Origin: a virus
IMG/VR virus record: IMGVR_UViG_3300011118_000041
Coordinates: 1 to 20,502 of that record
Reading direction: 5' to 3' (one strand)
DNA: 20,502 nucleotides
Shown here: positions 5,076 to 20,502 of the stretch, piece by piece
Layout of the letters: the number at the start of each line of letters is the position of its first letter
How positions within the stretch are numbered: the first letter of the stretch is position 1
The notes under the pieces: model-generated
Seen by the model: only the letters and a program-made list of their open reading frames with translations
Told to the model about the DNA's origin: nothing
Databases searched by the model: none
Program-made: the position numbers and the translations under genes

Positions 5076-7631
5076 ATGGCACGCAGCATTACATTTAACG
5101 GTATCACTCGATTCACCCCAGGTGGTATCACGCGAATCAACGCATCCGCTCTAGCTCAGGTTACGACCACCGAGAACGGCATCGTTGCTATTGTTGGAGA
5201 AGCAGAAGGCGGAGCACCCGGCTCTGAGGTTGGTCTTGTTACCACTTTTGATCCTTCCCGAGCAGCGGATATTTTCCGTAGTGGCCCAATCGTTGACGCT
5301 CTCAACCTCGCATTCCAGGCATCTAACGATCCTGACGTACCTGGCGGAGCTTCCCGAGTATACATTTACAAGACCAACGCGTCTGTAGCTTCTACTGCAA
5401 ACCTTGCAGCCGAGGATGCAACCGAGGTTGTTAACAGCACCGCAACAGTCGGCGGTACAGCAACTGCCCTCCCTGATACGGTAGGGCTGGCTGCTTACAC
5501 AGACGACGACGACCCTCGCCTAGTTGGCAAGTGGCTTGTAATCAACCCAAACACTGCCGCCTCCGAGGTTCGCCTCATCACAGGCTATACGGCGACTGGT
5601 AATATTCTTACGTGGGCTGATGCAGCAACAGTAAATGTCGCAACTGACCCGTACATTGTCCTTGAGGCCGAGGTAGAGCTTGTAGACGTTGTAGGCGCGG
5701 CTGCCACAACCACTAATGTTCCTCTTCTCGACGCTGCTATGGTAGCGAACGAGCACGCAGGACGTTGGGTCTATGTTCAGGCAACTGCTTCCCTTTCTTA
5801 CGTTCGTCAGATTGTAAGCAACACCACTACTGACCTTGTGGTCAGCCCAGCACTTCCAGCAGCACCAGCTGCGGGCGTTGCATACGTTGAGATCCTTGCG
5901 AACTCCATCGAGCTTACCTCCAAGGATTGGGGCGAGCACACCAACGGTATCAAGGTTGACGTTTCTGACGGAACCGGTTCTACCAAGGTTGTGACTGTCA
6001 CTTTCGAAGGCGACGAGGAAGTATCCCCAGAGCTTGGCGGAACTGCCCAGTTGAAGGTTCTCTTCAAGGGCGGTACCGAGATTGCAGCAACGCCTCTTTT
6101 GGCCGCAGCTCCTTCTACCGCCTCGTTTGTTACTACAACCGGTACGGCTCTTACGCCAGGTGCTCACGACGGACAGCAGGTATTGATCAACGGTGAATAC
6201 ACCACGATTACTACCAACACTGCAACAGAACTCAATCTCAGTCCTGCACTATCTGCGGCTCCCGAGGTTGGCGATGACGTGGCTATCCAGACTGTAACCG
6301 AGGCTGTACTTGAGGTTCAGGGATCTGCAGGAGCAGCAACCAGTCTTACGACTACGGTTACTGGTGCTCCCGGCAATGACCAGACTTTCGCGTTCTCCTC
6401 TGGGCAGACTCTTCGTCAGCTCATAGACCTTATCAATCAGGACTCCAACTACGAGGCTGCAGCCGGACAGGCTGTGAACCCAGACACCACCTTGGTTGCT
6501 GACTTTGACTTCGGTCCAGAGACTTCAGCAAACATCCAGGTGTCCACCGACCTTGCGGTCGAGGGTACTACTCGTAACCTGATGGCTGTGGTAGATTACC
6601 TCAACGACTTCTCCCAGTACGTAGAAGCTGCTCGCTCTTCCGACACCGGAAGCGCTGTTGCAGGCTGCTGCGCACCAGGTGAGACTCTAGACTCTGTTGC
6701 TCTAGCTGGCGGATCTCGTGGTATCTCCACGAACGCTTACTTCGACGCAGGATTCGATGAGCTTCTCAAGGTTCGTTGTAACTCGGTTGTTCCTCTAATC
6801 GACCAGGACCTCGTAAACGAGGGCTATGGCTCCACCGCAACCGTTGCTTCCGTAGCAGCTAACCTTGCAGGTCACGTAGCTGAGGCTCGTGGAACTGCTC
6901 AGGATACAGCTGGCGAACGTGGCGGATTCCAGGGATTCCGTGGAACTAAGACCGAGGTCATCGCTCAGGCTAACAGCTTGAACGACCAGGACGTTGCTCT
7001 GGTAGCTCAGAATGTAACCACTCTGAACAACCTCGGAACTCTCCAGCAGTTCGGTCCTCGTATGCAGGCTGTTATTGCAGCTTCTATGCGTGCCGGTGTG
7101 AACGAGATTGCTGAGCCACTCACACACAAGTTGCTCCGTGTTTCCGGCCTTACTCAGGATTCTACCTGGGATCCAGCCGATATCTCGGATGCAAACGAAA
7201 TGATTATCAATGGTGTTCTGTTCGCAGAGACCATTGATGGTGTTGGAACCAGATGGGTCCGAGACCTTACTACCTGGGTTACAGACGACAATCTCGCCTA
7301 TAGCGAAGGTAGTGTTCGTGATGCAGTTCGTTACGTAGCTTTCGGACTTCGCACCACTCTTGTTGAGCGCTTCACCGGTAAGAAGGCCTCCCCGGCAACT
7401 ATTGGTACCGTGAAGGATACAGCAGCTAGCTATCTTGAAACCGCTCGTCAGGATAACATCATCGTGGATTCTACGGATCCAGTAACCGGTGCGACCGTCA
7501 AGGCGTATCATAACTTGAAGGTGTACTCTTCTGGAGACACACTTCGCATCAACGTTGGTATCTTCCCAGTCCCAGGTATCAACTTCCAGTTGAATGACAT
7601 TTTCCTTCAGTTGCCAACGCAGTCCGCGTAA
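5076..7631 (+). CDS. Contractile tail sheath protein
   Basis: This protein polymerises around the tail tube and contracts to drive the tube into the cell. The N-terminal region fits the family: the segment around FTPGGITRIN, then GIVAIVGEAEGG and DPSRAADIFRSGPIVDALNLA. The C-terminal third carries the conserved sheath core: NGVLFAETIDGVGTRWVRDL, SVRDAVRYVAFGLRTTLVERF and a C-terminal strand VGIFPVPGINFQLNDIFLQL. At 851 residues it is larger than typical sheaths. The excess lies at about 125-410, where three copies of a small beta module occur (about 125-197, 203-275 and 340-406). Between the last two is a typical sheath strand region (SIELTSKDWGEHTNGIKV). The insertions probably face outward, as the variable domains of other sheaths do. 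No internal stop or frameshift is visible. Assignment is secure. Confidence 0.95.
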   Translation: MARSITFNGITRFTPGGITRINASALAQVTTTENGIVAIVGEAEGGAPGSEVGLVTTFDPSRAADIFRSGPIVDALNLAFQASNDPDVPGGASRVYIYKTNASVASTANLAAEDATEVVNSTATVGGTATALPDTVGLAAYTDDDDPRLVGKWLVINPNTAASEVRLITGYTATGNILTWADAATVNVATDPYIVLEAEVELVDVVGAAATTTNVPLLDAAMVANEHAGRWVYVQATASLSYVRQIVSNTTTDLVVSPALPAAPAAGVAYVEILANSIELTSKDWGEHTNGIKVDVSDGTGSTKVVTVTFEGDEEVSPELGGTAQLKVLFKGGTEIAATPLLAAAPSTASFVTTTGTALTPGAHDGQQVLINGEYTTITTNTATELNLSPALSAAPEVGDDVAIQTVTEAVLEVQGSAGAATSLTTTVTGAPGNDQTFAFSSGQTLRQLIDLINQDSNYEAAAGQAVNPDTTLVADFDFGPETSANIQVSTDLAVEGTTRNLMAVVDYLNDFSQYVEAARSSDTGSAVAGCCAPGETLDSVALAGGSRGISTNAYFDAGFDELLKVRCNSVVPLIDQDLVNEGYGSTATVASVAANLAGHVAEARGTAQDTAGERGGFQGFRGTKTEVIAQANSLNDQDVALVAQNVTTLNNLGTLQQFGPRMQAVIAASMRAGVNEIAEPLTHKLLRVSGLTQDSTWDPADISDANEMIINGVLFAETIDGVGTRWVRDLTTWVTDDNLAYSEGSVRDAVRYVAFGLRTTLVERFTGKKASPATIGTVKDTAASYLETARQDNIIVDSTDPVTGATVKAYHNLKVYSSGDTLRINVGIFPVPGINFQLNDIFLQLPTQSA
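5448..6293 (+). repeat. Three copies of a small beta module inside the sheath gene
   Basis: Translated copies lie at about residues 125-197, 203-275 and 340-406. Each follows the same plan: a leading strand, a short HxGRWVYVQ-like or GQQVLINGEY-like strand, a hydrophobic strand ending in R.I or T.I, an NT.T.L.LSPAL turn, then PAAPAAG/AAPEVGD and a closing strand. Copies 2 and 3 are the clearest pair (TTDLVVSPALPAAPAAG against TATELNLSPALSAAPEVGD). Copy 1 is more diverged. Similarity is at protein level; DNA identity is patchy. Confidence 0.55.
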
Positions 7632-7668: not shown

Positions 7669-8580
7669 ATGCCAGCTCTTCCTACAGTAGTTACTGATTA
7701 TCTAACCGCCGTAAAAGACGCGTTGACTACAGGCCCTGCTTTGGATAACAATGTGCCACCAGCAACTCATGCCGGTGCTCAGAATTACCTTCGCGCACAA
7801 GATATGTCCACTGTTCTTGATTTGCTTCAAGATGCATTGTCACAGTCTTCAGCACTTACAGCAGTAGGCGGCACTGTCCGTGGTGTTGTTGACGGTGCAG
7901 CAACCTTCGTAGCAGGCACACAGGTAGGTAATACCGTTGTGTTTGACGGTAACATCACTGCCTCTCTGGCAGGTGAGTCGCGTCGAGTAGCAGTTAACGA
8001 CACTACCACGCTTACCTTCGAAGGCGACGACCTCCCAGCAGCACCAGCCGCTGGAGACACGTACACCATTCAGGGAACTATGTTCTCTGAGTTTGTAGAC
8101 GCTCTTCGTGAAGGCAAAGGCCTTGCCGATGCCCCAGCTGGTAGCGTATACGGTGCAGACCGTCTAGCTATCGGAGGCATTATCAAGGGTGTAGAGGTTC
8201 TAGGCTCCACCGTTGCAGAGCGCAACATTGGCCGTCCTGGTCTTACCTCTCTAGCAGGCTCCACGGACACCGTGGTTCTTCTAGCAGACTCAGACTACCG
8301 CATTGACCAGTTCAAGGGCATGCGAGTAGTAGTTACTGCAAGAGGCGAGGGCATCGTAGTTAGCAGCAATGAGAACTCCGTGACACTTCGTGGCCCAATG
8401 GCAGCTGCCGCACAGGCAGGCGATGCTGTTGCAATCACCGTTCCAGTGAACGACTTTGGTGGTACATCCGCTCCAAAGATTCTAACCCATCCAGGTGCGC
8501 AGCCAGGCGAAAACGCCTATCTTGCTACCCTCATCGACCAGTTGCAGACTCTGGTAGCAGCGTTTACGCTTCCTACCTAA
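7669..8580 (+). CDS. Tail-associated structural protein, function unknown
   Basis: I do not recognise this 303-residue protein as a named family. The N-terminal ~60 residues look helical (YLTAVKDALTTGPALDNN, then MSTVLDLLQDALSQ). Two copies of the same small beta module found in the sheath follow: residues about 68-135 (TTTLTFEGDDLPAAPAAGD) and 197-258 (SVTLRGPMAAAAQAGD). A Gly/Pro-rich stretch and a C-terminal helix (AYLATLIDQLQTLVAAFTL) close it. It has a strong SD (AAGGAG, 8 bases before ATG) and lies between sheath and tube, which implies a virion role, perhaps sheath-associated or tail-surface. It is the last gene before a hairpin with a U-tract, so it and the sheath may share one transcript end. 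No signal peptide or catalytic motif is visible. Confidence 0.6.
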   Translation: MPALPTVVTDYLTAVKDALTTGPALDNNVPPATHAGAQNYLRAQDMSTVLDLLQDALSQSSALTAVGGTVRGVVDGAATFVAGTQVGNTVVFDGNITASLAGESRRVAVNDTTTLTFEGDDLPAAPAAGDTYTIQGTMFSEFVDALREGKGLADAPAGSVYGADRLAIGGIIKGVEVLGSTVAERNIGRPGLTSLAGSTDTVVLLADSDYRIDQFKGMRVVVTARGEGIVVSSNENSVTLRGPMAAAAQAGDAVAITVPVNDFGGTSAPKILTHPGAQPGENAYLATLIDQLQTLVAAFTLPT

Positions 8581-8695: not shown

Positions 8696-9118
8696 ATGGC
8701 GTCACAAACATTCTCAGGAGCGAGAGCTATCTTCCTGGTCAATGGTGCAGCCGTTGGTTTCGCAGGTGGCGTTTCCGGCGAGGAAATGATCGACTATGAG
8801 CCTATTGACGTACTCAATTTGCTCGAAGTTCGTGAACACGTACCAGTAGCCTACAGAACCAGCTTGAATGCTCAGATCTTTAGAGTCGTTGGCGACTCTC
8901 TCAAGGCGCAGGGAATCCTCCCTGTCCAGAGTGACATCATCACGTCCGGCGACCTAGAGGCCGCTATTCAGGACAGTGTGACTGCCAACACCGTACAGCT
9001 TTTCCAGGGCGTTCGATGCGCTGGTCATAGCTTCGATATCACAGCCCGAGGCGTCGTTCAGGAGAACGTTCCGTTCGTCGCTATCCGCGTGATTGACGAG
9101 TTCGAGAATCCAGTATAA
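8696..9118 (+). CDS. Tail tube protein
   Basis: The 140-residue protein is the expected size for a tube subunit. Hexameric rings of it stack to form the inner tail tube, through which DNA passes. Recognisable features are the N-terminal SGARAIFLVNGAAVGFAGGV strand pair, then GEEMIDYEPIDVLNLLEVRE with EHVPVAYR, and a C-terminal strand VPFVAIRVIDEFENPV. This matches tail tubes of contractile phages that follow the sheath gene. Its SD (TTAGGAG, 6 bases before ATG) is strong. It follows a terminator-like hairpin by about 45 bases, so its transcription needs read-through or its own promoter. A long gap (9119-9212) separates it from the chaperone gene. Assignment is by pattern and position and is solid. 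Confidence 0.88.
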   Translation: MASQTFSGARAIFLVNGAAVGFAGGVSGEEMIDYEPIDVLNLLEVREHVPVAYRTSLNAQIFRVVGDSLKAQGILPVQSDIITSGDLEAAIQDSVTANTVQLFQGVRCAGHSFDITARGVVQENVPFVAIRVIDEFENPV

Positions 9119-9212: not shown

Positions 9213-9686
9213 ATGGATAATCTACTGCATACCTTTAGCGTTGATGTGTATTCCGAACAGGATGCAACGCGCTATCAAGGTACATTTACGACTAAGAAGC
9301 TAACAATCAAGACCATGACCCAGCTTGGCGTTCGAAGAAGCCAGCTATGTGGCGGTCTTCACTACGACGAAGATAACCCAGGCCAGGGCCTAGACGCTAC
9401 TACCTACTCGATCAACAGCATGATCGCTCATCTAGAGGTCTCTCTCGTTGACGTTCCTATCTGGTGGGACCTGGACAAGATTACAGACATCTCTGTATTG
9501 TCTGAGGTCTACAAGGAGGTTGCTCGTTTCGAGAGTAACTTTTCGAGATCAAGGAATGCCGCTCAAGACGGAAGACCTGTTGCTAGCGGCCAAGGAAGTG
9601 GCCAAGCGCAGGGTTCTGGAGCCAACGTTGGTGGAGAGCCTCAGCCAGTGGTGGGAGGAGAAGTTCAAGCTTCCCTCGAACCATGA
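9213..9686 (+). CDS. Tail assembly chaperone, upstream frame (gpG-like)
   Basis: In long-tailed phages this protein and its frameshifted extension coat the tape measure protein before the tube assembles; they are absent from the finished virion. I start it at ATG 9213 because AGAGGG lies 8 bases upstream and the protein then begins MDNLLHTFSVDVYSEQ. An in-frame ATG at 9165 lacks a well-placed SD. Residues 1-110 look folded: YQGTFTTKKLTIKTMTQLGV, an INSMIAHLEVSLVDVP strand, then DISVLSEVYKEVARFE. From about residue 111 the sequence turns into a Gly/Gln-rich tail (ASGQGSGQAQGSG) that ends in SLEP. That tail overlaps the next frame and is probably shaped by it. The product would be 157 aa unshifted, or about 278 aa when the ribosome shifts +1 near 9540. 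Confidence 0.8.
   Translation: MDNLLHTFSVDVYSEQDATRYQGTFTTKKLTIKTMTQLGVRRSQLCGGLHYDEDNPGQGLDATTYSINSMIAHLEVSLVDVPIWWDLDKITDISVLSEVYKEVARFESNFSRSRNAAQDGRPVASGQGSGQAQGSGANVGGEPQPVVGGEVQASLEP
9540..9546 (+). other. Candidate +1 programmed ribosomal frameshift site
   Basis: The upstream frame reads AAC TTT TCG. The four Ts at 9540-9543 let a Phe tRNA on TTT (9540-9542) re-pair perfectly with TTT at 9541-9543. The next codon is then CGA in the downstream chaperone frame. A perfect SD-like AAGGAGGT (9513-9520) lies about 20 bases upstream. A small GGCCA/TGGCC hairpin (9588-9603) lies downstream. Both are at unusual distances for known stimulators. The exact slip point is inferred; a -2 shift would give the same frame. 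Confidence 0.5.
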
Positions 9687-10050
9687 GTTGTTTCAGGAAT
9701 GCTCTGTATATGAGCTGGCTGTAAAGTTTTGGGAAGACCACTACCGCAAGGACCCACTCGCTGTTTACCGTAACGCTGATGGTGAAGTACAGTTTGTAAA
9801 GACTGGCGACCCCCTCATCGACAAGTGGGAACAAGAACTTGCAGATGGCAAGACACCAGATTACCTTGAGGCCTTTACTCAGGACGAGATAAACCGCCTC
9901 AACCAGATGAGACTTCGAGCAGTTGATCGCTTCAACAAGCCTGCAAATCGCTCGAAACAGACCATAGGAGAAGCCACCGCTATAGCGGCGCAAGAGGCTA
10001 TACAGGCTACTCCTCTAAGATATAAGCGTTTCAAAGACTCCCCAGATTAA
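9556..10050 (+). CDS. Tail assembly chaperone, downstream frame (gpT-like extension)
   Basis: This frame is +1 relative to the upstream chaperone and is open well before 9556, so it is probably expressed mainly as a fusion through the frameshift. It reads MPLKTEDLLLAAKEVAKR, then LEPTLVESLSQWWEEKFKLP, SVYELAVKFWEDHYRKDPLA, DPLIDKWEQELADGKTPDY and a basic C-terminus ending RFKDSPD. The charged, helical character and position directly before the tape measure gene match the T part of G/GT pairs. An independent start at ATG 9556 is possible but weak: AAGGA abuts it with no spacing, and the good SD at 9513-9520 is 35 bases away. ORF length from 9556 is 164 aa; the part joined by the shift is 168 aa. 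No stop or damage is visible, so this is not a pseudogene. Confidence 0.78.
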   Translation: MPLKTEDLLLAAKEVAKRRVLEPTLVESLSQWWEEKFKLPSNHELFQECSVYELAVKFWEDHYRKDPLAVYRNADGEVQFVKTGDPLIDKWEQELADGKTPDYLEAFTQDEINRLNQMRLRAVDRFNKPANRSKQTIGEATAIAAQEAIQATPLRYKRFKDSPD

Positions 10051-10062
10051 TAGGAACACACG

Positions 10063-12000
10063 TTGGCAGACGACACCCATAAGATTGCGTTAGAACTGGT
10101 CCTTGAGGGCCAGCAACAGATCGACCAAGGCCTAAAGAAGGTTGCTAAGGATACCGCTACCTTTGGCAGTGTTTCTAAGCGTCTGGAAAAGCAGTCTATT
10201 CGTCATGCCAAGGAGCGTTCTAAGCTAGAGGATAAGTGGAACAGTCCTAAAGCCAAGAAGAAGCTCATCAACGATGAGAAGGCTGTCAACACCCAGCTCA
10301 AAGAGCGTATAGCTCTTATACGCAAGCAGGGTGCAGAAGTCGATAAGCTCGCTCGTAAGATGGAGCGTGTAGCTAACGGCCAAGACGCCAACGACCCAAG
10401 AAACGATCCGAGAGGTCGTAGGAGCCTAGGCAGAGGCATACGTAGAGCTGCAGGCGGAGCTGCACTCGCAGCAGCCGGTGCAGGTATTGGTTTGATGTCT
10501 AGCCAGATTCGTCAGGGCTACGCACAGCACATGCAGTACGGCATGGGCCGCGCCGGTATGATGGGCTCTGGTGCCACTACTGCAGGTCTCGACGCTGTAC
10601 TAGGTCAGGGCACTAAGCTAGGCTACGACAAACTACAGGGCGTCCAGCAGGCTAGAGCGGTTGCTATGGCTACTGGTAACTACAAAGCTACCACGACAGC
10701 GCAGGAACTCACTCGTAGCACCATGCTAGACATGGGACAGTCTACAGGGCTGATGGGACAGTTAACTCAGGCTGGTGGCGGTTTTGGAGGCGCGGAAGGT
10801 AACGCAGGTAGCAAGCAGCTACAGAAGATCATTACGCTAGGCTTTAGCGCTGGTATCAGCAAGGCTCGTCTTCCAGAGTTTATCCAAGGTGCTACAGGCG
10901 TTATCAAGGCACAGGCAGCTCGTCAGGGCGGCAACATTGACTCTGTAGGCTATGCTTCTGTTCTTCAAGCTATGGGCGCTAGCGGTGCTTCAGGCCTGCA
11001 AGGTGCTCGTGGCGCATCTGTATTTCAACGGTTGAATGAATCTATCGTAAAGCCAGGCGGCGGTGAAGCTGGTCAGGCTATGATGCTTCAGGCTTTCGGC
11101 TTTGGTAAGCCAGGCGGAGGCTCCAGTTACTACGAAGCTATACAGCGTCAGGAAGAGGGCGCTACTCCCGAGAACGTCAAGGCTATGTTTGCCGAGTTCG
11201 GTAAACAGAAGGGTGGCGGAGAGGCTCAGATTCTTGCTCTCAAGGGTGTGACCGGTCTAAATACCACTGTGCTTGAGGAGCTTAGAGACGTAGCAGCGAC
11301 TATGGAAGGTCCTGCTAGAGACGAAAAGCTACAGTCGATTCTAGACAAAGCTCAGGAGACGCCCGAAAGTCGTGCAGCAGATGGCATCGACGAGCTTGGA
11401 GATATGGCCAAGCAAGCGGCTATCGTCACTAACCACTCCCTCACTATAGGAGCACAAGTTGCCGAGTCTGTAAAGGCTATGCAGCTAGCTCTAAATGAGA
11501 TGGTTACACAGCTTATGCCTTTTGCTATAAAGGTGTTGGAAGCCATTGCACTGATAATGAAAGAGGTTGCCAACCTTATGGGCGGAGGCTTGGAGGGTAC
11601 CAACTTAGACGCAGATATTTTCGGTATCAAGAGGAGAACCGATCCTGAAACTGGTGAAGTCGCCACAAACTTCAAGGGCGACACAGTGGGAGAGTACGAC
11701 GTTGCTAATCTTACGGGTGGCGACAAGTATAATAAGGTGGAGAGAAAAGCTATCAACGAAATCAATAAGAAGTATGCGGTTGCGCAAATCGGCTACGATA
11801 TGGCTATGAAAGCTGACCCCGAAGCTCAGAATGCCGCAGACGCTAAGTATCTTACTTTGTTCGAGCCAGGAGGCCTGTTCTTCGAAGAGTTCCAGGCACA
11901 GAAAGCGATCGCGTTGGCCCAGCTTGAAGCAACTAAAGAAGCTAGCGCTACAGCTGCTGCAGCTGCTAAGTCCCCTGTTCCGCCAGGGATAGCTAGGTAA
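10063..12000 (+). CDS. Tail tape measure protein
   Basis: This protein sets tail length and is ejected through the tube ahead of DNA. The start is TTG at 10063, with AGGA 7 bases upstream and a sensible N-terminus (ADDTHKIALELVLEG). Residues about 15-110 are highly charged and helical, likely coiled coil. Residues 127-146 form a Gly/Ala-rich hydrophobic segment (RRAAGGAALAAAGAGIGLMS), followed by a long Gly/Gln/Met-rich region. A second hydrophobic stretch at about 485-510 (LMPFAIKVLEAIALIMKEV) could insert in a membrane. The C-terminus is helical and ends in an Ala-rich tail. At 645 residues it is short for its class and predicts a fairly short tail by the usual proportionality. It follows the chaperones, as expected. 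No muralytic domain is seen here; that role appears to sit in the next gene. Confidence 0.88.
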   Translation: MADDTHKIALELVLEGQQQIDQGLKKVAKDTATFGSVSKRLEKQSIRHAKERSKLEDKWNSPKAKKKLINDEKAVNTQLKERIALIRKQGAEVDKLARKMERVANGQDANDPRNDPRGRRSLGRGIRRAAGGAALAAAGAGIGLMSSQIRQGYAQHMQYGMGRAGMMGSGATTAGLDAVLGQGTKLGYDKLQGVQQARAVAMATGNYKATTTAQELTRSTMLDMGQSTGLMGQLTQAGGGFGGAEGNAGSKQLQKIITLGFSAGISKARLPEFIQGATGVIKAQAARQGGNIDSVGYASVLQAMGASGASGLQGARGASVFQRLNESIVKPGGGEAGQAMMLQAFGFGKPGGGSSYYEAIQRQEEGATPENVKAMFAEFGKQKGGGEAQILALKGVTGLNTTVLEELRDVAATMEGPARDEKLQSILDKAQETPESRAADGIDELGDMAKQAAIVTNHSLTIGAQVAESVKAMQLALNEMVTQLMPFAIKVLEAIALIMKEVANLMGGGLEGTNLDADIFGIKRRTDPETGEVATNFKGDTVGEYDVANLTGGDKYNKVERKAINEINKKYAVAQIGYDMAMKADPEAQNAADAKYLTLFEPGGLFFEEFQAQKAIALAQLEATKEASATAAAAAKSPVPPGIAR

Positions 12001-12005
12001 TTGCT

Positions 12006-15000
12006 ATGTCTGCTATAATTGAAGGCGCTCCATTTACGGACATAATCAACGGATCCCTAGGAAAAGATGGGGTCAGAAGATACAAGACTAGATGCAAGAT
12101 CCTGGTAGACAGTCATAACGCCGAGTCTGGTCAAGGCCCAGGCGCTGGCCGTTCCTTGGTGATTCAGGACGATGTATACTCTGTAGAGACCAGTAAGACT
12201 ATCAAGGGTGCAGGGCAGGCGACCGTTAGTCTCATTCCAGGTGACAACTACCTGAATCTAATCTTTCCTAACGACTATATCAATATCTACTTCGATATTG
12301 GTGACGGGTCTGGGTGGACTCGTACATTCTTCGGATTCGTGGACCGTATTGAGGAGAACTACTCAGTGTCGGGTAACGGTAACCCTGTCACTACGTTCCG
12401 CCTCATATGCACTGACTTCTACAAGGCGTTTGACCGAACGCAGATCTATTTCAACCCGCAGCTCGCCCTTCGCCCCGACTTCGCTAACTACGACTTCGCT
12501 GAGGCAAATATCGGTGGCCTGTCTCTTATGACGCGCGGTATCGTGGCCGGTGGGTCTCCTCCAGACGTTATCACTAACCTGGTGTTGCTTCTTATTGGGT
12601 TTGGAACACAGTTTAGGCTTCCCGCTACTTACAACCCCGGCGATACTCAGGTGCGTCTTAGAAAGCGCAGAGCTGAACTTGTTTATGGTAAGCTAAGCCC
12701 GGAAGCCTTAGAGTCGCTGTCTGCAGTAGGTAACGACTACACTAAGCTAGAGGCCGAGGCCAGAGCAGAAGCTAACCGTACTTGGGATAGTTACAGGGCT
12801 GGTAGGATTCAGAAAGAGGACGAACGAATCCAGTTGTTGTCTAAGAATACCGGACAGCCGGATCCTTCTAAGCTTGATGGCGATCAAGCTATTACCGTTC
12901 TTCAAGATATCATCATCAGGCAACAGCTTACTCCTAATGAAAAGGAGAGAGGACTGACAGGGGGTTTAGATAGCCTTACAGAAGCTAACGTCAGTCAGCT
13001 AAAAAGCATTTCTACCGAGACCTCTTTCTTGACCGACATTCTCGATGTATTCACCTTTGTAGAGCGCCGCTCCATTGATGGATACATGATTGGGTACCCT
13101 GTTTGGCAGAAGCAGGGAAGCCTAATGCAGATCCTTAGGGCTTTCTCCAATGAGTCCATCAATGAGATGTTCTTCGATCTGCGCCCACTTAGCTCCTCTG
13201 GAGCTGACCACTCCGTCTCTGAGGAACCTGTAGAAGGTGCCTACTCTCGTCTCGCAGATGACAAGAGCGGAAACATAGATGATGATGAGGCAGCCCCTCC
13301 AGGAATCACCTACATCCCAGCTCTGGTTATGCGTGAGTATCCGTTCAGTACCATCGAGGGTCTTGACCTCACCGATGTCAAGCTTGAGCTGATAACTAAA
13401 ACAGACACGCAAGATTATATTGGCCCACTGTTCTTTGGTTCCTTGTTTGACCGCAAGGCCAATACTGCTGGCCGTCATGTTATAGAGCACGACAACATTA
13501 ATGTTGCGGATAAAGCGGAGGGTGTTTCCACTGTAAAGGGTAGGAAGCACCTAGACGTAGCTGTTATCTCCGAGACTGAGGTGATGAAAACTGCACTAGG
13601 TAGAAGTGATAATGATCACTTCAACTTGTTTGAGTTTTGGTCCGACGATGTTCTTGGATCAGACAACAAGTTCTACATGAAGGACATGCTTCCTATCATT
13701 ACTCCTATCCATATCATTAGAAATGGTATAAGAGTAAACACCGTTACTACGAGAGCTGCTCGCTTCAGTGTAGACGCAATAAGCAAAACTACTCCTCCAG
13801 CGGAACACCCCACAGCTGACCAATCTCCTGACGAGATCCCTGAGGCCAGCGTCATTCAGTCCCCTATCTGGCCCGCCAATCCCACCTACGTTAGGTACTA
13901 CAACAGTAGTCCTCAGGCTGCGTGGGGATACCGTCCTAAGCCTAAGCCGCTTCCCGCAGACCAGTCAAAGGGTCCACAGGCCTGGGTATTCCACCAAGGT
14001 ATTGATATCACTAAGAGGCCATATGCAAACGTCGGCGTACCGGCGCAGGCAGGTTGGTCCGATCCCATTCCTGTCAAGGCAATAGCTGATGGCTGGGTTG
14101 TTGCTTCTTTCCCAGACGGCTGTACTGATGGTTACGGTAACTGTGTAGTTATCAAACACGATCTTACGACTCCAGGCGGAACACACATAGGTATACGTTA
14201 CTCTGTCTATGCCCACCTAGACAGCCGAGCAGTGGGAGCTAACCCCAAAGTGCCTAAGGCCAAGTCTAAGAGTAAATTCGCTTCCAAGGAGTGTCCAGGG
14301 GTGAGCGGCGGTATGCAGAAGCCTCAGTTCATCGAGCGCGGCACCGTTGTAGGTTACATGGGCAATACCGGTTTCACGGCTAAGAAGAACGACCGCTTCC
14401 ACCTGCACTTCGAGATCTGCAGAGATTGGCCGCCTAGAAACGACGCAGTTACTGCTAGAATTCCTTTCACCACAACCCCTCAAGGCGACCCAAAGCCAGA
14501 CCCTCCTGTGGTTGGCGGGAACTTGTTCGATGAGACCGGTGAGAGTACTTTCCGAATGGAACAAGCTAAACAGAATAGTTGTGACCCATTCCAGTTCTTT
14601 CAGTTGTTTGGCATCAACCTACAGACCTTCCTAAACAGCGCCCAGCCTGCAGAAGACGCAGGTGAAGTAGAGCCTGATGATAGTGACCAGGGAGGAAACA
14701 CTCCTGAAGAGCTTGCAAACTATCCTAAGACAGATGTCAAGGCTACGACCGGCGCTGAGATGGCTACTGAGGCGGATCCTAAGCCAACTACATCGCAGAA
14801 GCAAGTGGTTGACGGCTCTGACTCTCGTAAGCAGATTCTTCGCTGGGCTCTTTTGCAAGACCACTGGTACCAGCACAATCTTGAGTACCTATCCGGTACT
14901 GTGCAGATGCGTGGCGCTCCTGAGATTCGCGTAGGATATCGTCTAGATATGCACGAACGTCGCATGAGTTACTACGTCGAGGGTGTCAACCACTCTTGGA

Positions 15001-15488
15001 AGTTCCCTAACAACATGTCTAGTACCTTGCGCGTCACGCGAGGACAGCCTAATCATCCTTTCCCAATCTACGTTTACCCTGCCTATGAACAGATGAACGC
15101 CACTAAGGATCAGCGAAAAACTGGTAGAAGTCGCTTAGCTACATACTTTGTGACTCCCGATCCTGTAGCAATTCGTCGTTCTATATTCCTTAGAGACGGA
15201 GGAGCAGCTGTTGGTGGCGGTGAAGGCAACAGCCTTCTGGGTTCAGGAGCAGACGCAAAGAACTCTGTAGATGATATAGATTCTATTGAGTTCGATAAGG
15301 ACAGCCGCATTTCGACTAAGTATGACGAGCTAGTAAGTCCCGCAGGTTCTTATGAACTTACTAAGCGTATGGAGGACGGAGCCGTGGATGAAAACGAGGG
15401 TGAGAATGACCAGCCTCGCACCGACACTGTTTCCGGTACCGATGCTCGCTTCACAGATCTGAAGGATCCTACGGGGAAGACTAAATGA
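12006..15488 (+). CDS. Baseplate hub protein with embedded M23 zinc endopeptidase
   Basis: The N-terminal ~210 residues resemble gp27/gpD-like hubs, which adapt the tube to the spike: strands such as DDVYSVETSKTIKGAGQATV and TFFGFVDRIEENYSV. A charged helical insertion follows (about 225-330), then further hub-like sequence (340-560). Residues about 640-830 form an M23 (LytM-type) peptidase. The signature residues are H663 and D667 (HQGID), H737 (YAHL), and H799 and H801 (HLHFE). By family knowledge H663, D667 and H801 bind zinc and H737/H799 take part in catalysis. Cysteines C706 and C713 flank the GYGN loop, with C763 and C805 elsewhere in the domain. A hub-like beta domain returns at about 940-1035. 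The enzyme would cut peptidoglycan peptide cross-links during penetration. It starts 6 bases after the tape measure stop with a weak SD (AGGT). Its stop overlaps the next start (ATGA). Confidence 0.88.
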   Translation: MSAIIEGAPFTDIINGSLGKDGVRRYKTRCKILVDSHNAESGQGPGAGRSLVIQDDVYSVETSKTIKGAGQATVSLIPGDNYLNLIFPNDYINIYFDIGDGSGWTRTFFGFVDRIEENYSVSGNGNPVTTFRLICTDFYKAFDRTQIYFNPQLALRPDFANYDFAEANIGGLSLMTRGIVAGGSPPDVITNLVLLLIGFGTQFRLPATYNPGDTQVRLRKRRAELVYGKLSPEALESLSAVGNDYTKLEAEARAEANRTWDSYRAGRIQKEDERIQLLSKNTGQPDPSKLDGDQAITVLQDIIIRQQLTPNEKERGLTGGLDSLTEANVSQLKSISTETSFLTDILDVFTFVERRSIDGYMIGYPVWQKQGSLMQILRAFSNESINEMFFDLRPLSSSGADHSVSEEPVEGAYSRLADDKSGNIDDDEAAPPGITYIPALVMREYPFSTIEGLDLTDVKLELITKTDTQDYIGPLFFGSLFDRKANTAGRHVIEHDNINVADKAEGVSTVKGRKHLDVAVISETEVMKTALGRSDNDHFNLFEFWSDDVLGSDNKFYMKDMLPIITPIHIIRNGIRVNTVTTRAARFSVDAISKTTPPAEHPTADQSPDEIPEASVIQSPIWPANPTYVRYYNSSPQAAWGYRPKPKPLPADQSKGPQAWVFHQGIDITKRPYANVGVPAQAGWSDPIPVKAIADGWVVASFPDGCTDGYGNCVVIKHDLTTPGGTHIGIRYSVYAHLDSRAVGANPKVPKAKSKSKFASKECPGVSGGMQKPQFIERGTVVGYMGNTGFTAKKNDRFHLHFEICRDWPPRNDAVTARIPFTTTPQGDPKPDPPVVGGNLFDETGESTFRMEQAKQNSCDPFQFFQLFGINLQTFLNSAQPAEDAGEVEPDDSDQGGNTPEELANYPKTDVKATTGAEMATEADPKPTTSQKQVVDGSDSRKQILRWALLQDHWYQHNLEYLSGTVQMRGAPEIRVGYRLDMHERRMSYYVEGVNHSWKFPNNMSSTLRVTRGQPNHPFPIYVYPAYEQMNATKDQRKTGRSRLATYFVTPDPVAIRRSIFLRDGGAAVGGGEGNSLLGSGADAKNSVDDIDSIEFDKDSRISTKYDELVSPAGSYELTKRMEDGAVDENEGENDQPRTDTVSGTDARFTDLKDPTGKTK

Positions 15489-17160: not shown

Positions 17161-19134
17161 ATGGCAGAAAACTCAGCCATCACATTCAAAAATACTGGAG
17201 GCAAGATTAACTCCACGATTACCCCTGCCAGTCTAGAGGGCGCTGAGGGACAGCGAGCTAATTCGTTTTACACAGGTCAGATTACTCCTTTTCTTGAGAA
17301 GCAGTACAGTATCTTCATCCTAAATGCTAAGACCAACAAAGTTATCCAAGACGCCAACTTCTTGGGCCTGAACCCTGCTGCAACCTTAGCCCCGCCAGAG
17401 TACTTCTTCCGTGTTGCTCCCAAGGTCATTGAGGTTAGTGAGCCTTACGCTACTACCATTATTCCTACCCAGCGTGGAGGAAAGTACGTAGAATCTCACG
17501 GTTCTATCATCAAATCTATCCGTATTCAGGGAACTACTGGTGTGCGCCCCAACCGCAAAAGGGGTCCTGGCTCTAATATCCCTCTCATTGGAGAAGCGGT
17601 AAACGACCTTACTGGCGAGTTCGACCTTCGACTTCCCGGTCCCCGAAGCGGGGCTCCCAACGGAGGTCTTCGCCCTTATAGAGCTAGTTCCGAGGAAACC
17701 GGTTTTGATTCTATCGTGTTCCTTAGAAACATCTTTCGTGCGTATTCGGACGTGAAGGAAAACGACGAGACTTCTAACCATATTCTTATGGTGTGGAGAA
17801 ACAACAAGGATGGCGATTCGTGGATCGTAGAGCCTAAGGAGTTCCGCGTCAACAGAAGTGCGGCTTCTCCTTTGACATATGAATACAACATCACGTTCCA
17901 GACGCTCTCTCCGCTAAACGTAACCTTCTCAACTGAGAGCGATCCTCTATCCGCAGTTCTTGAGACTCGTAAGGTCTTTGAGCGCGTTCAAGAGTTCAAC
18001 CAATCTCTTCGCCGTACCTTCCTTATCGTGTCTACACAAGTTCGCCGGTTGGAGGGCTTGGGCGTATTTGCACAGACCCAGCTTCTTACTCCTATAATCA
18101 ACGTAACTCGTGGTCTTGGAGTTCTCAGAGCTACTGGCTCTAACTTCGGTAAGCGCCTACAGCACAACGCTCGTGTACTTCGGGATAACCTTGACAACGC
18201 TGTTGACCTTCTCTCAGGAACCCCTGGAGTAGAGGAGCAGGACGCTCTGGTTCGTTCCCTTAGACGCGCCAGTATTACTGCCGCAAGAATCCTGGTTGAG
18301 CCAGGTACTCGCGAGAGTGTAGACAGCGAAGGTGGAGAGCGCCAGGATCGGTACGCCCGCGCCTACATCACAGCCGGTAACACCGCTGACCGTGTTAGGG
18401 TGGCTCCAGCCGTTGGAGGCTCTAAGACTTACATTGGAAACGCTGCCCCTACAGGTAGTGTGGCGCAGGGCACTGTGCATGTTGGGGAAGATATCCGCGC
18501 TCTAGCAGGGCGTTTGTTGGGAGACCGCTCTCAGTGGCATATTATAGTGACGCTGAACGGCTTGAAGTCGCCCTACCTTGCTACTGACGGAAGAGCAGAT
18601 ACCCTTGCCCCTGGCGATAATATCCTGTATCCTGTATCTTCACGCGGAGTAAGCTCCATGTCTCTAAATACCGTAAACGTTTCTGACGGTGAGACTGATG
18701 GCACAAACCAGAACACCCTTGGCCCTGTTCAGCAAGCCTATGGCCGAGATATTCGTTTGGTCTCTGTTCCAACCTCCGCATCCGGTGTTGACCTTGCGGA
18801 CTTCGGAGTGAACCAGAAGGGCGACCTAGCCTCTGTTGTAGGTGTTCCTAACGTAGAGCAGGGTATCATCATCAAGTTCTCTACCGAACGCGGAGAGCTT
18901 CCAGCTCACCCAGGTTTCGGAGCATCCTTTCCTATCGGTTCTAAGGCCACTCCTGAGGCCATTAACGATTTCCGCTCCGCTACGGAGAGCACTATTTACA
19001 GCGATGGCAGAGTCCAGCGCGTAGACAGATTAGATTTCATTGTCGAAGGAGATACCCTCCTGGCCCAATCCAGGATCGTGTTGATAGACTCGTCCGATAA
19101 CTTGAATATTACGTTCCCTCTGAGGAGAGTATAA
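17161..19134 (+). CDS. Baseplate wedge protein: LysM domain fused to a gp25-like domain
   Basis: The 657-residue protein has three parts. Residues 1-255 form a beta-rich region with IKSIRIQGTTGVRPN, whose family I cannot name; a helical stretch follows to about 410. Residues about 439-492 look like a LysM fold: VHVGEDIRALAGRLLGDRSQWHIIVTLNG, then LAPGDNILYPV. Residues 530-657 resemble gp25/DUF2634-like wedge proteins: QGIIIKFSTERGELPAHPGFG, DFRSATESTIYSDGRVQRVD, and a final DTLLAQSRIVLIDSSDNLNI strand. In T4, gp53 and gp25 are separate wedge subunits, and LysM-bearing gp53-like proteins occur in other myoviruses, so this gene may merge the two jobs. GGAG lies 5 bases before ATG. Its stop overlaps the baseplate J start (TAATG), matching the usual gp25-gp6 order. 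The LysM could bind protein partners rather than cell wall. Confidence 0.72.
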   Translation: MAENSAITFKNTGGKINSTITPASLEGAEGQRANSFYTGQITPFLEKQYSIFILNAKTNKVIQDANFLGLNPAATLAPPEYFFRVAPKVIEVSEPYATTIIPTQRGGKYVESHGSIIKSIRIQGTTGVRPNRKRGPGSNIPLIGEAVNDLTGEFDLRLPGPRSGAPNGGLRPYRASSEETGFDSIVFLRNIFRAYSDVKENDETSNHILMVWRNNKDGDSWIVEPKEFRVNRSAASPLTYEYNITFQTLSPLNVTFSTESDPLSAVLETRKVFERVQEFNQSLRRTFLIVSTQVRRLEGLGVFAQTQLLTPIINVTRGLGVLRATGSNFGKRLQHNARVLRDNLDNAVDLLSGTPGVEEQDALVRSLRRASITAARILVEPGTRESVDSEGGERQDRYARAYITAGNTADRVRVAPAVGGSKTYIGNAAPTGSVAQGTVHVGEDIRALAGRLLGDRSQWHIIVTLNGLKSPYLATDGRADTLAPGDNILYPVSSRGVSSMSLNTVNVSDGETDGTNQNTLGPVQQAYGRDIRLVSVPTSASGVDLADFGVNQKGDLASVVGVPNVEQGIIIKFSTERGELPAHPGFGASFPIGSKATPEAINDFRSATESTIYSDGRVQRVDRLDFIVEGDTLLAQSRIVLIDSSDNLNITFPLRRV

Positions 19135-20502
19135 TGGCTTTCGTCCCAAGATCCTTTACCCAAATCCTGACAGATTCGGTTGCCTATGTGCAGTCCCGCA
19201 CAACCTACACAGACTTTACCGTTGGTTCGGCTATTCGAACAGTTCTGGAAGCAGCAGCTCTAGAGGACGATGAGCAGTATTTCCAGATGGTCCAGCTTCT
19301 GGACATCTTCTCGTACACCACCGCCGCTGGTGAGGACCTTGACCGCAGGCTTGCAGACTTCAACATCTTCCGTCTTCAGTCACGTCCTTCCTTTGGTGAA
19401 GCTAAGTTCATCAACACTAACCTTATTCAGGACGACTCTGCCACAGACTCCGCCGCAGGAAACACTACAGTAACCATCTTTGATTCCACAGGGTTCCCTA
19501 CCAACGGCTACCCTTACCTTATTAGAATCGCTGAAGGAACTAACCGCGCGCAGGACGCTGTTGTATCGAATCTGAATACCGCTACAAACACCTTTACCGT
19601 AGGTACGCTCGTTAGAGACGTAGAGATTGGTGACCGAGTAGCTCTTATCACTGGTGCCTCCCCATACACTATTGCTCCCAGCACAAACATACAGTCACCA
19701 GCCACCTCCTCTGAGAGCGCCAAGATTTACCGTACCTCAGAGGTTGCTACTATCCCAGCAGGTAACTACTACTCTAATCTAGTAAATATCGTAGCCACCA
19801 CCTCTGGTACTTCCGGCGATGCAGGCATCGGTCGTGTGTCTCAGTTTGTGGGAGCGCCTTCTTTTGCAGGAGCCAGCGTTACCAACCCAGACATCATTAC
19901 AGGTGGCGCTCTACGTGAGAGCGACGGAGACTTTAGAGCACGCGCAGTGGAGAAGCTCCAGGCTCTCTCTAGAGGAACTGTGTTGGCCCTCAAAGCCAGC
20001 TCTGTAGGCGTAACGGATCAGAATACCTCTCAGCGAGTTATCTCTTCGAACGTTCTTGAAGACTTTGCAGGTGACCCAGAAGAGGTCATCGTATACATCG
20101 ACGACGGCACTGGCTTTACTCCAGATACCGTGTCCCCGGCCTTCGACTCCCTCGCTACAGCAGTGAACCCCGGAGATGCAGTCATTTCTGTAGATGACGC
20201 TTCTGATTTTCCTTCCACAGGATATGTGTTGGTAAATGAGGACTTTCTTCTTGAATATGTTTCTGTTACCGTAAACACCTTGACTTTGGACGGAACAGTT
20301 CCGATTGGCACGACCCCAGCATCTATAGGGGATACTGTCCGTCGCATAGACTACATCTCAACAAGCACTGAATCCGGTCAGAGACGCTTCCAGATCAACA
20401 ACCCTCCTGTGGTCAGAAACACCGAGCGCATCTACACCAAGGCGTTGCTCGACACCACCTGGACCTTGCTTGTGGCCAACACTGATTACGTGCTCAATAA
20501 GG
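19134..20502 (+). CDS. Baseplate J-like wedge protein (Mu gp47/T4 gp6 type), 3' end outside window
   Basis: The first 456 codons are present; the frame is open at the window end. The start is clear: GAGGAGA lies just upstream and ATG overlaps the previous stop by one base. Baseplate J signatures are the helical N-terminus with FTVGSAIRTVLEAAALEDDE (28-47), AAGEDLDRRLADFNIFR (64-80), an APSTNIQS strand region, and RESDGDFRARAVEKLQALSRGT (261-282). These proteins dimerise to form the wedge ring that links hub and fibres and controls sheath release. Two insertions (about 108-173 and 343-406) follow the small beta-module pattern seen in the sheath (for example TGYVLVNEDFLLEYVSV, then NTLTLDGTVP). 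The canonical protein is usually shorter before this point, so the insertions enlarge it. Assignment is firm; length is unknown. Confidence 0.85.
   Translation, partial: MAFVPRSFTQILTDSVAYVQSRTTYTDFTVGSAIRTVLEAAALEDDEQYFQMVQLLDIFSYTTAAGEDLDRRLADFNIFRLQSRPSFGEAKFINTNLIQDDSATDSAAGNTTVTIFDSTGFPTNGYPYLIRIAEGTNRAQDAVVSNLNTATNTFTVGTLVRDVEIGDRVALITGASPYTIAPSTNIQSPATSSESAKIYRTSEVATIPAGNYYSNLVNIVATTSGTSGDAGIGRVSQFVGAPSFAGASVTNPDIITGGALRESDGDFRARAVEKLQALSRGTVLALKASSVGVTDQNTSQRVISSNVLEDFAGDPEEVIVYIDDGTGFTPDTVSPAFDSLATAVNPGDAVISVDDASDFPSTGYVLVNEDFLLEYVSVTVNTLTLDGTVPIGTTPASIGDTVRRIDYISTSTESGQRRFQINNPPVVRNTERIYTKALLDTTWTLLVANTDYVLNK

Follow-up and report, generated by a model that had tools for sequence, protein, structure and literature searches.

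The window, a 20.5-kb IMG/VR contig (20,502 nucleotides), carries genes ordered as for a contractile tail. A contractile-tail sheath gene (5076–7631, + strand; PHROG 279, E = 8e-35) lies upstream of a gene for a tail tube or virion structural protein (8696–9118, + strand; PHROG 985, E = 2e-10), which directly precedes the 157-residue gene U (9213–9686, + strand). A second frame, T, overlaps the 3′ part of U and runs from stop to stop at 9436–10050 (+ strand), and directly 3′ of it lies a probable tape measure protein gene (10063–12000, + strand; 645 residues), assigned from its position and length; profile searches with this gene gave no match. The U/T pair is thus placed between the tail tube and probable tape measure genes, and this tail context, with the chaperone homology of U described below, bears out an initial annotation that had likened the two overlapping frames before a tape measure gene to the G/GT arrangement. 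Similar repeats of approximately 40–60 residues, noted by eye, seem common to the 851-residue sheath (5076–7631), a 303-residue protein (7669–8580) and the protein encoded at 19134–20501. A 1,160-residue protein (12006–15488) contains, also by eye, an HxH-type M23 peptidase-like stretch (...HLHFEICRDW...) and is therefore probably a tail lysin.

The start codon of U is ATG 9213, preceded by AAGAGGG at a distance of 8 nt, and its stop codon is at 9684–9686. The product of U is a short, G-like protein homologous to known tail assembly chaperones: it matches tail assembly chaperone families in PHROG (PHROG 25000/1038; E of approximately 1e-4), and its profile aligns with SPO1 gp10.2 (hhalign, 97.3%, E = 2.4e-11) over a region that includes the Phe of the slip site. 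The AlphaFold (AF2) model of U is confident up to approximately residue 110, which is this slip Phe, and is disordered after it. Searched against BFVD, the model gave matches with E down to 1e-7, with named tail assembly chaperones from 2e-5; the matches that carry a name come from Herelleviridae and other large phages with Gram-positive hosts, and are tail proteins or tail assembly chaperones. Comparison with solved structures (PDB) gave no significant match, the nearest relevant one being the HK97 chaperone at E = 0.23, and a Pfam search gave no significant match. The Gly/Gln-rich tail of U had been viewed as a by-product of the overlap, which fits the disorder of the model past the slip Phe and the overlap of VQASLEP, a conserved end of U, with KLPSNHE, conserved in T. 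Among relatives, U frames commonly carry VYxEVxxFENSF just 5′ of the slip codon, and T frames commonly carry AAKxxA...RWW..KYKLPxNHELFQ...TGDPLIDKWE 3′ of it.

Codons of T begin one base after those of U, which places T in the +1 frame. Relatives were collected by searching IMG/VR with U, T and profiles from both, giving 71 anchored loci, 62 of which are non-redundant at a limit of 85% identity across the 120 nt that surround the site; these 62 loci, together with SPO1-like and PHB04-like isolates, form the comparison set. Homologous T frames overlap U in the +1 frame in all 62 non-redundant loci (binomial, 4e-19), as the initial annotation had read the window, and have no conserved start of their own. 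No confirmed relative of T was found in GTDB genomes. In the isolate phage collection, neither the T of the window nor that of one relative (L129) gave a match, nor did the U of another (L087), and the U of the window matched only SPO1-like phages, at E of approximately 0.01 or worse.

A shift from U into T is permitted in the 250 nt between a T-frame stop codon (9433–9435, + strand), which forms its upstream bound, and the U stop, and the sole in-frame XXX_N site of the window in this region is TTT_T at 9540–9543 (+ strand). U reads TTT 9540–9542 as a codon; after it come T9543 and CGA, giving the junction ...FESNF-RDQGMPLK.... The initial annotation had proposed re-pairing of tRNA-Phe from UUU 9540–9542 to UUU 9541–9543, landing on CGA, and the proposal is matched across the family, in which relatives mark the signal as real and ancient: all 62 loci have, near the 3′ end of the G-like gene and at the aligned position or at most three codons away, a slippery site at which the tRNA can re-pair fully or nearly so. 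By type, these sites are TTT_Y in 54 loci, AAA_A in 4 and TCC_C in 4, the first comprising TTT_C (39), TTT_T (8), TTTTTTC (4) and TTT_C one codon (2) or three codons (1) later, which gives TTT_Y at the aligned position in 51 of the 62 loci and a later TTT_C in 3. The heptamer TTTTCGA, which the initial annotation had singled out for a conservation check, is not conserved; TTT_Y is, with TTTC commoner than TTTT. When the aligned slip codon encodes Phe it is TTT in 52 of 59 loci (52:7), against 131 TTT to 168 TTC elsewhere in the same genes (Fisher, 1.5e-10). Slippage from UUU to UUC or UUU allows full re-pairing of tRNA-Phe, AAA_A allows full re-pairing of tRNA-Lys, and TCC_C allows re-pairing at two of three positions, in likeness to the antizyme shift site UCC_U.

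The TCC_C sites form one clade and AAA_A occurs in a second, with three changes on the tree; in the sampled loci, other shift-prone sites have therefore taken the place of the slip site, with no case of loss. Members of the first clade (L051, L052, L054 and L055) have ACC/CAC/GCC TCC CCT (UCC_C) and not TTT_Y, with a weak Shine–Dalgarno (SD) element in some of them, and are a case of natural slip-site exchange. One of them, L052, is forced to a later site by a T-frame stop just past the old TTT position. The AAA_A relatives (L058, L065, L141 and L143) have AAA AGY where others have TTT_Y. In four TTT_Y clades, U becomes less conserved and T more conserved across the slip codon, one of the four showing only a slight gain for T. 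Twenty loci have a T-frame stop at −20 (offsets in nucleotides from the slip codon), such stops reach −8 and even +1 elsewhere, and U stops occur as early as +15, or +9 in Troll and Twort, so that the shift site is bracketed between them. The A-site codon varies across loci (CTC, CGN, TTC and others) and is not a stop codon in the window. No downstream stimulatory RNA structure is conserved over +6 to +65, where the mean folding z is −0.13 and control regions are equal or better.

These properties bear on three other routes into the T frame. A shift of −2, which had been left standing beside +1, would give the identical frame, and an SD far upstream might pull the mRNA backwards; such a shift is nonetheless highly improbable, since tRNA-Phe cannot re-pair two bases back (on GCU, CGU, CCU or ACU), the codon preceding TTT is variable, the conserved part is TTT with the following Y, needed by a forward slip only, and the AAA_A replacement permits perfect +1 re-pairing. 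Slippage of RNA polymerase on the T run, for which TTTT or TTTTTT runs in 12 loci might speak, has a negligible probability: most sites consist of only three T's followed by C, too short for such slippage, and it does not account for the replacement sites TCC_C and AAA_A. T might also be translated from a start of its own, by reinitiation or internal initiation and with no fusion, in which case the peptide FESNFRDQGMPLK is not expected. An ATG is present at 9556 in the window, but this origin of T is very unlikely. Only 3 of 62 loci have an ATG at this offset (+16); 24 loci have no ATG, GTG or TTG from −17 to +37; and no start position is conserved among the 62 loci, although relatives with a separate T start had been envisaged as a possible counterexample. 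As the initial annotation had noted, ATG 9556 has no well-spaced SD, with AAGG only 1 nt upstream, and in SPO1 and Troll the pair is annotated as joined products. The locus is very probably explained by a +1 slip of tRNA-Phe at 9540 that links the two chaperones into a fusion of approximately 278 residues, of which 168 (9544–10050) would be the T part translated after the shift.

Upstream of the slip codon lies the SD-like sequence AAGGAGGT (9513–9520, + strand), whose core GGAGG (9515–9519) ends 20 nt before it. The sequence occurs once in the window against approximately 0.7 occurrences expected by chance on both strands, and therefore proves nothing in the window alone. Across the 62 loci, GGAGG is found at exactly −25 to −21 from the slip codon in 45, the next offset accounting for 4. 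At codon −9, where 13 different amino acids are encoded, the third base is nonetheless G in 52 of 61 informative loci; codon use for those amino acids predicts 29, and none of 200,000 simulations reached 52 (P < 5e-6). Glu at codon −8 is encoded by GAG in 51 loci and by GAA in none (246:149 elsewhere; 4e-10), GAG:GAA is 46:12 for Glu at codon −3, and GTG is preferred for Val at codon −7 (1.5e-5). Pairing with the 16S rRNA tail is strongest for the 12 nt beginning at −27, with a mean energy of −13.2 kcal/mol against a background of −3.2 (z = −12); in L041 the match is AAGGAGGTGATC. At least 7 contiguous nucleotides of TAAGGAGGTGATC are present in 41 of the 62 loci and in 5 of 434 control windows; a strong SD is absent in 8 of the 62. 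The initial annotation had allowed for either another role or chance: its SD-like element stands, and chance falls to the fixed 20-nt offset and the wobble constraint. On this comparison, the conservation of AAGGAGGT is held at the nucleotide level at a fixed distance of 20 nt, although the E-V residues of the encoded helix could account for some of it. A hairpin pairing the SD with the slip region was considered and rejected, its favoured partner at 0 to +5 being present in only 21 of 62 loci and the A-site codon being variable.

An SD-like sequence under nucleotide-level selection at a fixed distance is one feature of SD-stimulated frameshifting, and it is present here. Known SD stimulators lie 3 nt away for +1 shifts and 9–14 nt away for −1 shifts (PMC5009743), from which 20 nt is a departure; searches of published open-access text gave no account of an SD approximately 20 nt before a +1 site. 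In prfB the slip occurs on CUU_U with UGA in the A site and an SD 3 nt away (PMC12421855, PMC5009743). The window resembles prfB in its +1 direction, its predicted single-tRNA slip on a pyrimidine run and its candidate SD-like stimulator, and differs from it in having no stop codon and in the 20 nt between GGAGG and TTT. A slip at the codon just after the SD, and not at TTT, would fit the prfB spacing of 3 nt, but is scarcely credible: T-frame stops lie past that codon in strong-SD loci, at −17 in L047 and L143 and at +1 in L052, which excludes it in these three, and the T frame is poorly conserved from there to TTT.

Among isolates, the RefSeq record of SPO1 (NC_011421) annotates ‘+1 ribosomal slippage’ for the homologous pair gp10.2/gp11.1, which shares with the window a homologous U, the gene order, the +1 direction at UUU_Y and TTT CGT at the matching place. 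The Adastra record has a ‘+1 frameshift product’, and ‘an unusual +1 frameshift’ has been described for Moonbeam (PMC4299906). The sites are TCC TTT CGT in SPO1 and TCC TTT CGC in Adastra; unlike the window, both lack GGAGG at −25, and anti-SD pairing is weak in four of five SPO1-like sequences tested. The 3′ ends of U read ACC TTT CGC AGA TAA in Troll, ACC TTT CGT TAC TAG in Twort and ACG TTT CGC CAA in Semele, with only approximately 17 nt left for a shift in Troll and Twort. RefSeq calls the T part ‘RNA polymerase beta subunit’ in Twort (NC_007021, L172 1313–1771) and Semele (NC_047926, L173 1304–1771), a name that looks wrong because its position and frame are those of the +1 chaperone extension.

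The isolates with sheaths closest to that of the window are PHB04, Dolphis and Touem01. They belong to a PHB04-like group comprising Bordetella phage PHB04, Pseudomonas phages Dolphis and Touem01, and relatives of 86–95 kb in Aeromonas, Enterobacter, Yersinia and Morganella. Like the window, these phages have a +1 U/T overlap before the tape-measure/lysin gene and a TTT CGN site (pairs at L163 6678–7046 in PHB04, L164 6640–6975 in Dolphis and L165 6662–7036 in Touem01); unlike it, PHB04, Touem01 and Dolphis carry AAGGAGG or AAGGAG approximately 4–5 nt before TTT, close to the prfB layout. In the records examined, seven PHB04-like isolates of Gram-negative hosts (including L167–L170) have an unannotated +1 tail-chaperone frameshift at TTT CGN, their T parts being listed as separate short hypothetical proteins or omitted. 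One slip codon is found with three SD arrangements: none in most of the SPO1-like sequences, near in PHB04, Touem01 and Dolphis, and far in the family of the window. Outside phages, the UCC_UUU_CGU cassette of influenza PA-X, present exactly in SPO1, shares the UUU_CGN slip with the window; it is read by a eukaryotic ribosome with no SD, and only the site is alike.

Stimulation of the +1 shift by AAGGAGGT from 20 nt away, outside the rule of 3 nt or 9–14 nt, is a tentative proposal that falls slightly short of even confidence. The element may instead serve another purpose, such as a folding pause for the chaperone domain, ribosome spacing or an internal T start, with no effect on the shift, and we place this close to, and a little under, an even chance. 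The 20-nt spacing outside the known stimulator range and the same UUU_C slip in SPO1-like phages without an SD are in keeping with another purpose, whereas the SD keeps its distance from the slip codon even where the proteins have diverged greatly, and an SD at a near-canonical 4–5 nt from the same TTT CGN site is present in the related PHB04 group, so that SDs recur at the U/T junction. An internal start would make use of the T-frame ATG, GTG or TTG found at −17 to −5 in 20 of the 62 loci, mostly a TTG at −11 with an acceptable 9-nt spacing, but the other 42 have no such codon there, and codon usage for Phe at codon −4, where TTT would make the TTG, is unbiased (17:26 against 114:142; P = 0.62). 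The SD probably does not serve T as a start signal.

The comparison of loci fixes the site and direction of the +1 shift and the conservation of slip site and SD; that the shift takes place in vivo, how often it does so and what the SD contributes are what we infer from these alignments. From one start, two chaperones would be made, the short U (157 residues, G-like) and a U-T fusion (approximately 278 residues, GT-like). The slip would occur while Phe-tRNA sits in the P site on UUU 9540–9542 and the next codon is awaited: the tRNA would move forward to UUU 9541–9543, and translation would resume in the T frame, with CGA 9544 as its first codon. By analogy with lambda gpGT, the fusion presumably delivers tail tube subunits to the tape measure protein. 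Lambda G/GT likewise draws two forms of the chaperone from overlapping frames that immediately precede the tape measure gene; unlike the window, it uses a −1 shift (Xu, Hendrix and Duda 2004, as cited in the review PMC5009743).

AAGGAGGT is under selection and can pair with the 3′ end of the 16S rRNA in elongating ribosomes; if it acts on the shift, this pairing would raise the shift rate. A strong anti-SD hybrid would arise with the P site near codons −5/−4, withstand the next few translocations, and be exhausted or ruptured approximately when UUU enters the P site, so that pausing or forward recoil may be favoured. Anti-SD hybrids survive 5–7 nt of movement, according to evidence cited in the review PMC5009743; as 20 nt lies at or beyond this range, how long the hybrid persists and when it ruptures are given here as we infer them. 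The kind of event is already known, from +1 slippage in SPO1 (RefSeq) and from UUU_Ynn as a +1-prone tetranucleotide in bacteria (PMC5009743); what is new is the SD at 20 nt.

The +1 tail-chaperone shift has so far been mentioned in a few SPO1-like phage annotations. Here a large group of contractile-tail phages, most of them uncultured, shows the +1 form throughout, and that form also occurs in phages of Gram-negative hosts. For annotation, a TTT_C, often TTT_CGN, at the end of a chaperone gene, followed by reading in +1, may serve as a simple rule for locating the missing second chaperone in many phages. The same slip codon without an SD, with a near-canonical SD and with a 20-nt SD makes a natural experiment on the response of the ribosome to internal SDs. 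If true, stimulation from 20 nt would act through a long-lived pausing hybrid, or through its rupture at the moment UUU arrives in the P site; phages related to this family have either no SD or a near-canonical one at the same slip codon.
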